A DNA stretch of 64,000 bases from Larkinella humicola (GTDB lineage Bacteria; Bacteroidota; Bacteroidia; Cytophagales; Spirosomataceae). The notes under the pieces are model-generated. The model was given only the letters and a program-made list of their open reading frames with translations, ran no database searches and was not told where the DNA came from. Each line of letters starts with the position of its first letter. Position 1 is the first letter of the stretch. The stretch covers positions 62,001-126,000 of the forward strand of contig NZ_VTWS01000003.1 of assembly GCF_008727875.1 (NCBI RefSeq), in the 5' to 3' direction. Shown piece by piece: positions 56,981 to 61,948 of the stretch. The position numbers were made by a program, and so were the translations under genes.

Positions 56981-57406
56981 TCAGGCAGCCATGCTGTCTA
57001 TTCTCGATATTTTCTTTACAAAGCGACGCAGAGTGTCCTGACTAACAGGCTTTGGCAGTTGGTGATTGATTTGTTGCAGAGCCTGGCGGGGTTCTTTCGG
57101 AAACGTCATCATGGCCTGAATCACTTTTTCAACGTGTTGCTGATCGTCGGGGTTCAGTTTTGGTTTCAAACCGCGGCCTGGTTTATCCATCAAGCCCTGA
57201 ACACCGTCTTCAGACCAGCGATTCATCCAATTGTAGATACTGCGACGGTCTACTGCGAACATATCCATCAGTTCGCTGACGGTTAAGCCGTAGTAGCTAT
57301 ACAGTACACACTGGCAACGTTTCTTTAGAACGTTGTTTTGGCTCTCACGAATCGTCTGACGGAGCTGCTCCACTTGTTGTCCAGTTAAATTCTTAACGTT
57401 CCGCAT
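56981..57406 (-). CDS. IS630 ORF-A-like helix-turn-helix protein
   Basis: A 141-residue protein matching the DNA-binding N-terminal part of IS630-type transposases. It has NVKNLTGQQVEQLRQTIRES, a first HTH LTVSELMDMFAVDRRSIYNW, the MNRWSEDGVQGLMDKPGRGL linker and a second HTH LPKPVSQDTLRRFVKKIS. No DDE catalytic partner frame is found on either side. It may be the first ORF of a two-ORF element whose second half was lost, or a domesticated regulator. ATG at 57406 is used in place of a TTG 9 nt upstream. Confidence 0.72.
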   Translation of the reverse strand: MRNVKNLTGQQVEQLRQTIRESQNNVLKKRCQCVLYSYYGLTVSELMDMFAVDRRSIYNWMNRWSEDGVQGLMDKPGRGLKPKLNPDDQQHVEKVIQAMMTFPKEPRQALQQINHQLPKPVSQDTLRRFVKKISRIDSMAA

Positions 57407-57425
57407 TGTTATCAATATTAGTAGT

Positions 57426-57727: not shown

Positions 57728-58426
57728 ATGAACAACACTAATTCAAAACCGGAATCGTCTTCTTCTTCGTTTTCATTGAAGCGAAAAGACTTTTCTATCC
57801 TAGTAGCCCAGGCTGAACTATTTAATTGTGAGGTACTTTGTCAGGTACTCAAGCAGCAGGGGTACAATGTGGTTGGGAAAGCCATCGAAATGGAGGATAC
57901 GCTTCAGCAAATTCGGGTTAAGCAACCGCAATGCGTCATTTTAGAATCTGAGATTTCCGGACGGCGTAGCGTAGACATCGTTCAGCAGGCCCGGACGAAC
58001 AACCACAAAACCAAATTCATTCTGTATACCAGCAAACCGGACTTAAAACTGGTAGCCAATGCCATGCAGCAGGGATTCTACGGTTTTTTATATGCGAATG
58101 ACGGATTGGACGAACTCTACAAGTGTTTTCAGACCATCAGTACGGGTGGGTATTATTACAGTCCCGGTTTTTTACTTTTGTTGAAAAACTACGGGATGAA
58201 CGTCATGACCGATGAAACGAAGGAGCAACTGGGCCGCTTGACGGGTCGGGAACTTGAAATCCTTCGGTTAGTGGCGCAGGGAGTTACCGGTTATGAAATT
58301 GCAGATCAGCTCCACATCAGTTACCGAACGCTGGCGAATCACAAAACCAATATTGCGCAAAAGCTGGAGTTGGGGAGTTGCCGGAATCTGGCTCGCTACG
58401 GAATTTCCGTAAAAGAGTACCTTTGA
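57728..58426 (+). CDS. LuxR/NarL-type regulator with a degenerate receiver domain
   Basis: A 232-residue protein laid out like a NarL response regulator: receiver at about 20-145 and a LuxR-type HTH at about 165-225 (LTGRELEILRLVAQGVTGYE, IADQLHISYRTLANHKTNIA). The receiver lacks the phosphorylation site. The acidic pair after the first strand is replaced (ILVAQAELF), the phospho-acceptor Asp is Glu (CVILESEISG), and the conserved Lys is Ala (GFLYANDG). The switch Thr remains (ILYTSKP). It is therefore probably not controlled by a histidine kinase but is constitutively active, or uses another signal. A Ser-rich N-terminus precedes the receiver. Monocistronic. Confidence 0.87.
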   Translation: MNNTNSKPESSSSSFSLKRKDFSILVAQAELFNCEVLCQVLKQQGYNVVGKAIEMEDTLQQIRVKQPQCVILESEISGRRSVDIVQQARTNNHKTKFILYTSKPDLKLVANAMQQGFYGFLYANDGLDELYKCFQTISTGGYYYSPGFLLLLKNYGMNVMTDETKEQLGRLTGRELEILRLVAQGVTGYEIADQLHISYRTLANHKTNIAQKLELGSCRNLARYGISVKEYL

Positions 58427-58487: not shown

Positions 58488-59480
58488 CTAGATAATTTCG
58501 CTCTTTGGAGGAAGGTATTCGACCTCCTGGGCGGAGAAGCGCACCAGACGGTTTTTAAAATCCTGCAGCCGGGCACGCGGCATGTCGGTTTCGTCGTTGT
58601 TGGGGGTTTGCATGCGAATGCTGTATTTCCCATTTTCCCAATACGCGTAACTGGCTACGAAGCTGAGGTTGATAATGCAATTGCGTTTGGTTCGGAAAAA
58701 CAGTTCCGGATTCAGTTCCGCTTCCAACTCATTCATGGTTTTGGTAATCGAGAACCGACCGGTGGGGTGAACGGCGTAATAATACCGGTCTTCGGTTTCA
58801 AACCAGAAGCAATCCTGAACGGCTAAGATGGTTTCGCCAAAATTGTTTTTGCCTTTCAGGTGCGTCAGGAAAGCACCGGGTTGAGGAACGAGCGACTGAA
58901 AAGGGTCAGGGGCTTCGCTGCTGCGTTTCCGTTGCCGGCGTTGTTCGAGAATATCGACCAGCAACGACCCGTTGACGGCGCCGTAACCCATGATCAGAAC
59001 CGGAATCAGGTAAAAGGAATAATATTTAAGGCTGTAGGTACCCTGGATGTAATTACCCAGGTACAGTTCGAGATCGTAATTAGGGAAGTTAACCAGCAGG
59101 TAACGTACGGTTTGCGTTACCGGGTTAAAGAGAAAAAAAGCGACCAGCATGACGGGTAAGATTTTTACCTCGTAGTTGAGTATGTTTCGGGGGGTCAGTT
59201 CGATTCGTTTGATTCGGCAGGCTTCATGGTAAATATTCAGCAGCATCAGCAGGATGACCAGGGTTGAAATTTCCGGCAGGATTCCCCCCCGCAGGAAGAT
59301 CCACAGGTATCCTAGTAAACCGCCATACTCTTCTACTTTCACTAATTTCTTTTCAAATGCAAAGAGCCAGTTGAATGCCTCGAACGTAAATACAGCCAAT
59401 AGCAGAATACTGAGACTCTTAAAGGGTCTTCTTATGTACTTCAGATTTAGCGGTACTTCGGTCATTGCTACCCCAATCAT
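58488..59480 (-). CDS. Membrane-bound LytTR transcription regulator
   Basis: A 330-residue protein with four membrane segments (about 20-42, 58-82, 105-125 and 150-175). A basic linker (LEQRRQRKRSSEAP) and a C-terminal LytTR DNA-binding domain follow (VQDCFWFETEDRYYYAVHPT, LEAELNPELFFRTKRNCIIN, ARLQDFKNRLV). The protein could sense a signal in or outside the membrane and act directly on DNA. It is divergent from the small-peptide/acyltransferase pair, with 164 nt between, so that promoter is its most likely target. It is convergent with the degenerate-receiver regulator. Confidence 0.87.
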   Translation of the reverse strand: MIGVAMTEVPLNLKYIRRPFKSLSILLLAVFTFEAFNWLFAFEKKLVKVEEYGGLLGYLWIFLRGGILPEISTLVILLMLLNIYHEACRIKRIELTPRNILNYEVKILPVMLVAFFLFNPVTQTVRYLLVNFPNYDLELYLGNYIQGTYSLKYYSFYLIPVLIMGYGAVNGSLLVDILEQRRQRKRSSEAPDPFQSLVPQPGAFLTHLKGKNNFGETILAVQDCFWFETEDRYYYAVHPTGRFSITKTMNELEAELNPELFFRTKRNCIINLSFVASYAYWENGKYSIRMQTPNNDETDMPRARLQDFKNRLVRFSAQEVEYLPPKSEII

Positions 59481-59591
59481 GTTCTCACTTCTTGAACTGT
59501 GCTAAATTACTAACAATAAATAGTAATTAGTTACTAAAGCTGCATAATATTTTAGCCAAAACTTGCCATTCTTTTGCCTAGGCCGACCCGG

Positions 59592-59599
59592 TACTTTTG
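59592..59599 (+). promoter_or_regulatory. -7 element of the peptide/acyltransferase unit
   Basis: TACTTTTG, an exact TAnnTTTG. TTTG at 59573-59576 is a possible but closely spaced upstream box (15 nt). Transcription would start near 59606, which excludes the earlier in-frame TTG as a translation start and leaves a leader of about 40-90 nt. An imperfect palindrome (TAGTAATTAGTTACTA) lies 50-70 nt upstream. Confidence 0.5.
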
Positions 59600-59644: not shown

Positions 59645-59896
59645 ATGACTGACAATTTAATCACTCTAACAGCATCTATCGCATCTTTCGCCATGAAAAA
59701 GAACTTTGTTATCAACTCAGCTAAGCAATTATTGAATTCTGCTACTACCAACCTGAACGTAATAGCTAAAAATGAAACCAGCGATCGCATCCTTTTGGCC
59801 GGTAAAGCCGACAAAGATGGTGAAGTTTGCTGCAACTGGTGGCCTTCATTCCACGGTCTGCAACCAAACGCAACGGATCAACTGGCTCTTTCTTAA
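59645..59896 (+). CDS. Small peptide, candidate RiPP precursor
   Basis: A frame of 83 codons from the ATG at 59645, or 67 from the ATG at 59693 (MKKNFVINSAKQLLNSATTN). The second start is more typical of a leader peptide. The first about 38 residues are a helical, Asn/Leu/Lys-rich leader-like part. The end is different in style: KADKDGEVCCNWWPSFHG followed by LQPNATDQLALS, with a Cys-Cys, a Trp-Trp, Pro and His. There is no signal peptide and no double-glycine motif. Only 12 nt separate it from the acyltransferase-like gene, so they form one unit. A precursor of a modified peptide is inferred; it was not matched to any known family. Confidence 0.6.
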   Translation: MTDNLITLTASIASFAMKKNFVINSAKQLLNSATTNLNVIAKNETSDRILLAGKADKDGEVCCNWWPSFHGLQPNATDQLALS

Positions 59897-59908
59897 TTCT
59901 AAATTACC

Positions 59909-61042
59909 ATGAGCAACTTCGTGCATCAATATCAGCGGGAATTGGATCGTTGTCGCCAGCAATTCGAATCCCTGGATCTCCGGAAAGAAAAAGGGTACCT
60001 CTTCAAATTTACTACGTTCTCGGCCAGTGTCCAGAACATTCTGCCTGAGATTCCGATTGAGAAGCACGAGGACCTTTTTCAGAAATTGTTACTTCAACAG
60101 GTTTACACCACCTTTGATCAGCAATTTTTGACCGCCAATGACCTGATTCAAACGAAAGGGCCGATTCGGAAACTGGTAAACAGCCAACACCCGAATATTT
60201 ACTGCACTTTCCACTTGGGTTCTTACCGCCTGCTGACCACGTATTTGTATCGAAACGGCATTGATGTGGCCCTCCTGGTCAGCAGGGGCACTTATCAAGA
60301 ACAGGGTAAAGACATTTGGGCCACCATCAAAGGTCTTCAGAAAAAGCACAATTTAACCAACTCGTTCCAAATTCTGGACGCTGAGCAGACGTCATCGACG
60401 CTGCAGGTCATCCGTGAATTGCGGGCTGGAACCTCCCTGGTAATCTTTATCGACGGCGTTACCAGTACAACTGGATTGAATCGTCAGGAAGATAAAGAAG
60501 TCCAGGTGCGCTTTGGAGCCAAAAATGTGTGGGCCCGCAAAGGGGTCGGATTCCTGTCTTATGTAACCAAGACGCCCATTGTTCCGGTGATCAGTTACCG
60601 GGAAAAAAATCTGAACAACGTTTTATCTTTTCTCGATCCTATTGTTCCGGAAGCTGATTGTGACCGCGAAACGTACTGCCGATTGAGCCTTCAACACCTC
60701 TATGATTCATTCTGGCAGTATTTGACCAGGTATCCGGAACAGTGGGAAGGATGGAATTACATTCATAAATTCCTCGATCAGCACGAATTGGAACAACAGG
60801 CCGATTCGTATCAACCACCCCGGCCGCGACCCAAAAAGCGGGTCGCCTTCAATCAGGAACGGTATTCTATCTGCGACTTAGAAGATTCACCCATCCTGTT
60901 TGACCGCCGGTTATACGTCACTTACGAAATTTCAACCGACTTGCGTGACTTTTTGCTTCAGGTTGGCACCGTCGAGACCCCTGAGGAAGTGCTTGGCACG
61001 GACATGTATCTCGACTTACTTTCCAAGCAAATTATTGCCTAG
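59909..61042 (+). CDS. Acyltransferase-fold protein with a PqqD-like C-terminal domain
   Basis: A 377-residue soluble protein. Residues about 75-290 resemble lysophospholipid/lipid A acyltransferases. The region YCTFHLGSYRLLTTYLY stands where these enzymes have the catalytic H-x4-D/E block, VIFIDGVTSTTGLNRQEDKE gives the donor/acceptor site, and ARKGVGFLSYVTKTPIVPVI gives the P-I-V-P-V block. The usual acidic residue of H-x4-D is not conserved (HLGSYR). Residues about 305-377, after a Pro/Arg/Lys linker (PPRPRPKKR), look like PqqD: SICDLEDSPILFDRRLYVTY, then DLRDFLLQVG, TPEEVL and LDLLSKQIIA. PqqD folds bind leader peptides in RiPP enzymes. Acylation of the adjacent peptide is inferred, not shown. 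No membrane segment. A strong terminator follows. Confidence 0.8.
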   Translation: MSNFVHQYQRELDRCRQQFESLDLRKEKGYLFKFTTFSASVQNILPEIPIEKHEDLFQKLLLQQVYTTFDQQFLTANDLIQTKGPIRKLVNSQHPNIYCTFHLGSYRLLTTYLYRNGIDVALLVSRGTYQEQGKDIWATIKGLQKKHNLTNSFQILDAEQTSSTLQVIRELRAGTSLVIFIDGVTSTTGLNRQEDKEVQVRFGAKNVWARKGVGFLSYVTKTPIVPVISYREKNLNNVLSFLDPIVPEADCDRETYCRLSLQHLYDSFWQYLTRYPEQWEGWNYIHKFLDQHELEQQADSYQPPRPRPKKRVAFNQERYSICDLEDSPILFDRRLYVTYEISTDLRDFLLQVGTVETPEEVLGTDMYLDLLSKQIIA

Positions 61043-61624
61043 GTAACCGTAAATACTAGTTTAATCTTTTCTTGTTTTCAATTGTAAAAGTCGGATCTGC
61101 GGACATCTGTTCAGATCCGACTTTTTTATTGAACTATCCTAACAATTCACTAGACGAAAATAATGCTGGCACAAATTTTGTAACCATTTAACTACAAAAT
61201 TATCGATTTGTTTGTCTGCTAATTAGTGGCATTCCAGACTTGCAATTCTTTAATTATACAGTGGTTAAATAATAAAAATCCTATTTAACATTTATTTTAC
61301 GTGTAAAACTCTTGCTTTATAACAATTCTCATTATATTTGAATAAGTGTTTGTTAAAGACAAGCGTCGAGAATGACTCAGAATGGTGACTGATAATTCTC
61401 TTTACGAAGGGTAGAAATACCGAGTCATTCACAAAGAGGTTTTAGTCTGCCTCATGATTATCTAGTAAACAATTGCTGACTTCATACCCTGAAGTTACTA
61501 CTCTCTGTCAATCATACCTCTATTTCAACGGCTGTTGAAATACTCAAAAATCACTGTTTGTTTCCGTCTTTCAGAGAAGTACGGTAACCTTCAACAGGAT
61601 TAGCAAGCAGGCACGATGTGCCTA
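61043..61624. other. Intergenic region with structured elements
   Basis: 580 nt without a credible gene. It contains the terminator of the acyltransferase unit at 61086-61125. It also has interlocking pairs AATGACTC/GAGTCATT (61371-61378 with 61422-61429) and CTCTTT/AAAGAG (61398-61403 with 61433-61438), and a 7-bp hairpin TTTCAAC-GGCT-GTTGAAA at 61523-61540. The first 250 nt are very AT-rich. Confidence 0.5.
61086..61126 (+). terminator. Terminator of the peptide/acyltransferase unit
   Basis: AAAAGTCGGATCTG (61086-61099) pairs perfectly with CAGATCCGACTTTT (61112-61125); the stem is 14 bp, the loop 12 nt, and a T-run follows. It lies 44 nt past the acyltransferase stop codon. Confidence 0.92.
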
Positions 61625-61948
61625 CTAACTAACGGTTGAAAGGTTCTGTTCCGAGGTAATCGGCGTATAACTCTCTGCGGCAGTCACTGCGGGAAAGCTC
61701 AACTGCAAAAGAGTCAGAATCTTTGCGAGCGTCCCGTCACGCTGCCAGCGACGAAAGCGATCATAGATGGTTTTCCAGGAGCCGTACCGTTCGGGCAAAT
61801 CGCGCCAGGGCGCACCGGAATTCAAAATCCAAAGGATCCCATTAATGGATTGGCGATGAGACCGCCACGGACGACCGGGACGATTGTTGGAGGGCATCAT
61901 GTCCTTTAATTTCTCCCACTGTGAGTCGGTCAATTCATACTTACGCAT
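61625..61948 (-). mobile_element. IS5-family transposase ORF-A fragment
   Basis: A 107-residue frame with the standard N-terminal domain of IS5-type transposases: MRKYELTDSQWEKLKDMMPS, NRPGRPWRSHRQSINGILWI, LNSGAPWRDLPERYGSWKTI and DRFRRWQRDGTLAKIL. After about residue 82 the sequence no longer resembles the family and stops, and no catalytic DDE part is found downstream. Inverted terminal repeats were not found by eye. It is a truncated copy, or ORF-A of a two-frame element that has lost ORF-B. Confidence 0.8.

Follow-up and report, generated by a model that had tools for sequence, protein, structure and literature searches.

The question raised by this locus is whether a small peptide and the acyltransferase-fold enzyme encoded directly behind it form a biosynthetic pair and, if so, which chemistry the enzyme performs. 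The pair lies in a window of 64,000 nucleotides (the whole stretch of DNA analysed) from the 7.9-Mb genome of Larkinella humicola, and the nearest named records to its enzyme are from Larkinella, with 99% identity. The locus is, with little doubt, a minimal RiPP locus made up of a precursor and a maturase that carries a RiPP recognition element (RRE). The best explanation, with a probability of about 0.5, is that the RRE guides the transfer of an acyl group to a Cys in the core of the peptide.

Both genes lie on one strand, peptide first, and the ATG of the enzyme gene (59909) is located 12 nt past the end of the peptide stop codon (59896); the ORF pair described in the earlier note (a peptide of 67–83 aa, a 12-nt gap, and a 377-aa enzyme) keeps its coordinates. 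The unit and its surroundings comprise the following features:

57728-58426, + strand: LuxR-type response regulator (Pfam GerE 5e-15, Response_reg 1.6e-10)
58488-59480, - strand: membrane-anchored LytTR regulator, divergent from the peptide gene (Pfam LytTR 6e-17)
59521-59536, strand not assigned: palindrome TAGTAATTAGTTACTA, candidate operator in the divergent promoter region (conserved block in upstream-region alignments)
59592-59599, + strand: TACTTTTG, Bacteroidota -7-type element (TAnnTTTG motif)
59693-59896, + strand: precursor peptide, 67 aa, with leader MKKNFVINSAKQ...IAKNE and a core with C46-C47 (homologue alignment)
59909-60832, + strand: PatA/LpxM-type acyltransferase domain, residues 1-308 (H102, R107, D182)
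60833-61042, + strand: RRE, residues 309-377 and stop (AlphaFold2 and structural comparison)
61086-61127, + strand: intrinsic terminator with a 14-bp stem, a 12-nt loop, and a T run (direct reading of the sequence)

The element at 59592-59599 lies 5' of the peptide gene, and 59 of 61 loci have TAnnTTTG, which we take to be the -7-type promoter motif of Bacteroidota, within 230 nt 5' of their first precursor. A sigma-70 promoter scan was uninformative (3 sites versus 3.8 in shuffled sequence). The palindromic block TAGTAATTAGTTACTA is kept, with small changes, in seven Larkinella-type upstream regions, and blocks resembling it can be seen by eye in Spirosoma and Runella alignments. The single terminator expected from the earlier note was read directly from the sequence 3' of the enzyme gene, with stem arms at 61086-61099 and 61112-61125 followed by the T run; it is missing from the output of the terminator scan because its loop of 12 nt exceeds the limit of 8 nt allowed there. 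Among the clusters common to at least four of 36 core loci, a set that holds several genomes twice, only the LytTR and LuxR-type regulators are present in nearly all, and no peptide transporter or protease is evident, as had been claimed before. Likewise, no acyl supply, protease, exporter, or immunity gene is evident in the unit from core-locus clusters viewed by eye and family scans; nine neighbour proteins were scanned (PAP2, DnaG, HTH, DUF4096, polysaccharide export, RNase E/G, TPR, DHH, and one without a family) and the remaining clusters were assessed by eye. Two transposase-like short ORFs, both on the - strand, occur in the window at 56981-57415 (HTH_32/HTH_29) and 61625-61948 (DUF4096 of IS4/5 type); 10 and 9 of the 36 core loci, respectively, keep counterparts close to the unit, which suggests domesticated or fossil pieces of insertion sequences.

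The peptide ORF can be read as 67 aa from the ATG at 59693 or as 83 aa from the ATG at 59645, with the same stop. The shorter form is supported, since homologous peptides begin with a conserved MKKxF and several of them (L003, L006, L007, and L008) lack an in-frame upstream ATG extension. Neither Pfam nor NCBIfam gives a call above cut-off for the window peptide. In alignment A2, which together with its profile covers 37 of the 61 distinct precursors, M1, F5, E28, and C47 are invariant and K3, I7, and K26 nearly so. All 61 precursors contain Cys, as CC in 51 and as a single residue in 10, and the Runella-type relatives have a single core Cys. As C47 is the only invariant column of A2 after E28, the core Cys is the likely modification site; however, E28 in the leader is equally invariant and K26 almost so, which argues against conservation singling out the Cys. 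In a sample of 27 precursors in five groups, pooled dN/dS, calculable for nine of the ten leader or core sets, was 0.09–0.31, thus the peptide evolves as a protein. Leader values are below core values in three of four comparable groups (leader/core 0.11/0.25 in Larkinella, and 0.10/0.20 and 0.09/0.31 in two Spirosoma-type groups) and the order is reversed in Runella (0.23/0.16), while a third Spirosoma-type group gave 0.28 for the leader and a saturated core. The best 12-residue Kyte–Doolittle mean before the Cys is 1.68 among the 61 precursors, a value of hydropathy only and not a signal-peptide prediction.

Peptide and enzyme occur together. A protein search found the enzyme in 66 of 222 host-family genomes, 62 with the core type and four with distant types only (G039, G046, G110, and G152), and the peptide profile found precursors in the same 62 genomes and in none of the other 160. 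These genomes hold 72 precursor copies, seven of them with two or three, and every copy lies beside the enzyme as judged by eye, so that the small frame is conserved next to the enzyme in 62 of 62 core-type genomes, a check that the earlier note had proposed. The searches scored at most 29 first-pass candidates per genome for the peptide and 14 for the LytTR protein, and absences hold to that depth. A peptide precedes each of the 61 distinct core enzymes (54 single, 4 double, and 3 triple), and the profile, which includes many of the tested peptides, matches 61 of 61 real upstream regions but none of 1220 shuffled regions and none of 61 read on the reverse strand. When 33 of the 37 A2 precursors were used for profiles of one group at a time, the Spirosoma-type profile found 4/4 Larkinella-type and 4/7 Runella-type peptides, the Larkinella-type profile 15/22 Spirosoma-type and 2/7 Runella-type, and the Runella-type profile 4/4 Larkinella-type and 4/22 Spirosoma-type. 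Besides the extra precursor copies, the conserved LytTR and LuxR-type regulators and the distant homologues in RiPP clusters go beyond the earlier note.

The second half of the pair, the enzyme of 377 aa, combines two folds. Structures were predicted for 15 sequences, taken from the window and from named contigs, and residues 309-377 have an AlphaFold2 pLDDT of 93.9 and bbb-aaa topology. In a comparison by VIA-align, re-ranking the best 1000 of Foldseek, the best 16 structural rows for this domain are all chains of RiPP enzymes, aligned over their RREs. The C-terminal domain in the predicted model is thus an RRE fold, a bbb-aaa winged helix. The PqqD-like tail of the earlier note stands by structure as an RRE, whereas its similarity to PqqD is undetectable by sequence: Pfam gives no PqqD (PF05402) match in the enzyme, and hhalign against PqqD gives a probability of 0.3% for the 61 core domains and 4.9% for 15 of the 22 distant domains, the C-termini of seven loci (L086–L092) having been left out of the distant profile because of insertions. 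The PqqD set comprised 10 of 12 fetched PqqD loci (L123 and L124 were filtered out), and a positive control, an M50-linked RRE, matched it at 94%, so membership of PqqD by sequence finds no support. A PDB search with the sequence profile of the domain returned 0 matches.

The catalytic domain has the LPLAT (PatA/LpxM-type) acyltransferase fold, and the peptide's partner is therefore not a member of the GNAT acyltransferases. No Pfam or NCBIfam call for the enzyme is above cut-off, LpxL-type families falling far below theirs, and it contains no strongly hydrophobic segment (best 19-residue mean 1.02 versus 1.89 in the LytTR protein). LPLAT enzymes use an HX4D/E catalytic dyad. In an alignment of 83 sequences (61 core and 22 distant, without the split homologue L099) the His is present in 83 and the acid in 0, and the altered H-x4-D motif noticed earlier reads H102-LGSY-R107 in the window. 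Arg occupies position 107 in all 61 core enzymes; the distant ones have R in 8, S in 7, Q in 3, N in 2, P in 1, and G in 1. His102, Gly104, Asp182, Gly212, and Trp279 are invariant throughout.

Distant homologues widen the picture. Enzyme matches occur in 44 of 390 order-level and 37 of 392 phylum-level genomes, both sets drawn from larger groups, and the phylum-level matches are mostly frames of ~290 aa with the catalytic part only. The distant loci examined were 23 from the family and order searches (L079-L101) together with L158, L159, and L160; precursors were recognised in seven of the 23 (L079, L083, L085, L094, L096, L100, and L101) and in L159, and none in L158 and L160. Except in L083, each of these loci encodes one to five peptides of 47–64 aa whose leaders contain EERLE or EDRLE and whose cores hold Cys (ISCCLDG and RCSNRCNG, for example), several with CC, although one of the three EERLE-type peptides of L101 lacks Cys. 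Seven EERLE-type peptides were compared with NCBIfam and matched no relevant family. Such peptides (L079, L085, L094, L096, L100, L101, and L159) are often multicopy and near M50-like peptidases or radical SAM proteins, and from their sequences they are possibly an unnamed family of RiPP precursors. L083 holds two FlmA-type precursors (40.1 bits for the one tested, cut-off 30), a FlmE/OhkG radical SAM maturase (534.9, cut-off 500), and a FlmR/OhkR peptide arginase (404.7, cut-off 350). An arginase-family protein is found in L094 (200.3, cut-off 22) and a radical SAM protein in L079 (35.1, cut-off 29.5), and elsewhere among the distant loci M50-like daptide-type peptidases and grasp-with-spasm-type proteins give clear scores that stay below the curated cut-offs.

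In the other 16 of the 23, no Cys precursor could be recognised within ~4 kb, L095 having a 70-aa ORF without Cys. Eight of the 16 contain ketosynthase genes, and five of the eight also a LanB-like gene as judged by sequence clusters; therefore, the LPLAT-RRE family may serve other substrates as well. The LanB-like protein of L097 matches Lant_dehydr_N with 105 bits (cut-off 28), neither it nor that of L095 has an NCBIfam match, and the ketosynthase stays below curated cut-offs. A FabA-like protein in L080 and a flexirubin-type tyrosine ammonia-lyase in L093 are over their cut-offs, and some distant homologues lie near acyl-CoA-ligase-like genes. In L081, L095, L097, L098, and L099 and their neighbours, ketosynthase-like and LanB-like genes stand beside the LPLAT-RRE homologue, and these regions are possible hybrid polyketide-RiPP clusters, a reading from sequence. 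The homologue of L099 seems to be split by a frameshift into frames of 126 and 305 aa. The homologues in loci with ketosynthase-type genes may transfer chains of the aryl-polyene or polyketide kind, or may have substrates other than peptides.

The reaction of the enzyme is probably acyl transfer, and the core Cys, from its conservation, has an even chance of being the acceptor. The RRE would bind the leader in the F5...K26-x-E28 region, His102 would activate the thiol of the core Cys (C46-C47, or the single Cys in Runella-type relatives), and an acyl chain from acyl-ACP or acyl-CoA would then be moved onto it. The enzyme could do without the catalytic acid, replaced by Arg107, since thiols require less activation than hydroxyls. 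S-acylation of the Cys is supported by the pairing, the extra precursor copies, the RRE and acyltransferase folds, and the universal Cys, and also by some distant homologues beside Cys precursors, RiPP maturases, and M50-like peptidases. Nevertheless, the missing acid argues against it, since E127 of LpxM is named as catalytic in the title of structure 5knk, as do the lack of an evident acyl supply, protease, or exporter in the unit, the majority of distant loci without a Cys precursor, and the Cys-free peptide of L101.

What the product does could be read from its regulators. In each of the 62 genomes with the core enzyme, a strong match to the LytTR sensor region lies next to it, as judged by an eye comparison of positions, and six genomes without the enzyme have weaker relatives (G048, G113, G156, G157, G158, and G169); the LytTR protein is located in the membrane and carries its LytTR domain at the C-terminus. 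A full-length homologue of the LuxR-type response regulator is found upstream in 33 of 36 core loci, L106 and L118 having a short paralogue only and L018, on a short contig, none. Its receiver reads VILE in the window and VILE, VIVE, or VITE in all 33 full-length homologues, at a position where Asp is presumably the usual phospho-accepting residue, and this Glu suggests that the regulator might act independently of phosphorylation. The membrane sensor domain of the LytTR protein also occurs by itself in several g1 and g33 genomes, as a copy of ~181–187 aa that has no DNA-binding domain and lies away from the peptide locus:

L141, 4215-4763: free-standing sensor copy in the window's own genome, contig C11
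L142, 4211-4762: free-standing sensor copy
L143, 4146-4706: free-standing sensor copy
L144, 3980-4531: free-standing sensor copy
L145, 3976-4536: free-standing sensor copy
L146, 4158-4700: free-standing sensor copy

These copies could be partners or decoys for the LytTR sensor. A link of the six orphan sensor copies to precursors was rejected, no peptide match being better than E 0.11.

From gene order and conservation, a signal is a tentative reading of the product. The acylated peptide would be exported or inserted into the membrane by machinery outside the locus, the divergently encoded LytTR protein would sense it as a lipopeptide signal, and this protein together with the LuxR-type regulator would control the unit. 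Signalling is favoured because both regulators are adjacent and the shared promoter region is conserved; moreover, the core enzyme is present in 9 g1 genomes, with no listed g1 genome lacking it, and in 35 g33 genomes (g33 being apparently Spirosoma), a distribution that resembles signalling more than it does a toxin of sporadic occurrence. The product could instead be an antimicrobial or envelope-modifying lipopeptide with the LytTR protein as regulator only and not receptor, as lipidated RiPPs of known activity are mostly antimicrobial. However, the unit shows no evident gene for immunity or export, and its single-locus presence across those g1 and g33 genomes also makes this reading doubtful.

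Returning to acyl transfer onto the core Cys, the acceptor might be another group, namely Lys26 of the leader, a Ser/Thr of the core, or, as with GNAT-lipidated RiPPs, the alpha-amine exposed once the leader is cleaved off. K26 is conserved in at least 90% of the alignment, and the acyl groups of lipolanthines, selidamides, and nostolysamides are on N (PMC13060382). Nevertheless, K-x-E is found in 59 of 61 distinct precursors, K26 is Gln in 1 of 37 aligned ones, and K26 lies in the leader-like part, the Cys being the sole invariant column after E28; this is unlikely. In contrast to the universal Cys, Lys is missing after K-x-E in one of the 61 precursors, and Ser/Thr is missing after the Cys in one. 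It is more improbable still that the fold has given up acyl transfer for other chemistry on the Cys or a peptide bond, or for a binding or chaperone role only: the replaced catalytic acid speaks for this, but the five residues invariant in 83 of 83 sequences argue for an active site, and some homologues lie beside ketosynthase-like, FabA-like, and acyl-CoA-ligase-like genes. Finally, an ordinary membrane-lipid acyltransferase, a possibility raised in the earlier note, with a chance small ORF beside it has the PatA/LpxM fold in its favour and is extremely improbable given the peptide's conservation and co-occurrence, the shuffled-control profile test, the RRE fold, the absent acid, the low LpxL-type scores, and the lack of a strongly hydrophobic segment. 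None of the three outcomes that the earlier note named as refuting its reading was observed.

The enzyme–peptide pair is probably a new way of attaching a fatty chain to a gene-encoded peptide. In the literature examined, lipidated RiPPs receive their lipid from GNAT enzymes, from prenyltransferases, or through the lipoprotein pathway, and a lipid-A/PatA-type acyltransferase with its own leader-binding domain would, if true, be a further and independent route, from an enzyme family without a name in common profile libraries (Pfam and NCBIfam). With one enzyme and one peptide, the chemistry is directly testable in E. coli, and, as the LytTR partner is constant, a circuit of peptide signalling is directly testable in Spirosoma and Larkinella. 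The most far-reaching version, unlikely as a whole, would be a new class of lipidated RiPPs in which an RRE-guided LPLAT-fold enzyme without the catalytic acid S-acylates a core Cys, the thioester lipopeptide is a pheromone of Spirosoma and Larkinella read by a dedicated membrane LytTR receptor (peptide quorum sensing in Bacteroidota), and distant relatives use the enzyme to furnish other RiPPs with aryl-polyene or polyketide chains.

RRE-dependent RiPP systems share with this locus the bbb-aaa fold, a leader/core precursor beside the enzyme, and extra precursor copies, but the catalytic domain fused here is a PatA/LpxM-type acyltransferase; such systems include lasso B1, ThcOx, McbB, LynD/TruD, PqqD, CteB, PbtF, and SuiB. 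In the main texts of two RRE surveys (PMC12710340 and PMC7470986) the word acyltransferase occurs 0 times, and titles and abstract openings of the open-licence literature, among the matches listed, describe no LPLAT or lipid-A-type acyltransferase as a RiPP enzyme, an absence that is not proof. GNAT-lipidated RiPPs (lipolanthines, goadvionins, lipoavitides, selidamides, and nostolysamides; PMC13060382) are fatty-acylated ribosomal peptides, as proposed here, made by an enzyme of another fold, and no lanthionine synthetase or GNAT is seen in the window unit. DAG-RiPPs (PMC12636315) are lipidated, Cys-containing ribosomal peptides also from Bacteroidota, but depend on a signal peptide and Lgt/LspA/Lnt, whereas the window precursor has no clear signal segment by hydropathy. 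Prenylated lanthipeptides are lipidated RiPPs as well, but with prenyltransferases instead of an acyltransferase fold (PMC12715784). The distant homologue of L083 lies in a cluster of the flm/ohk 'DD(I/V)LF' RiPPs (PMC12703449, a paper with 0 occurrences of acyltransferase), between FlmA-type precursors and the peptide arginase; these RiPPs differ from the window locus in leader and core and in having radical SAM and arginase genes. With the PatA/LpxM lysophospholipid acyltransferase superfamily the window enzyme shares the catalytic fold, the His of HX4D/E, and the invariant Asp182, and it differs in lacking the catalytic acid and a hydrophobic N-terminus and in possessing a C-terminal RRE and a peptide partner.
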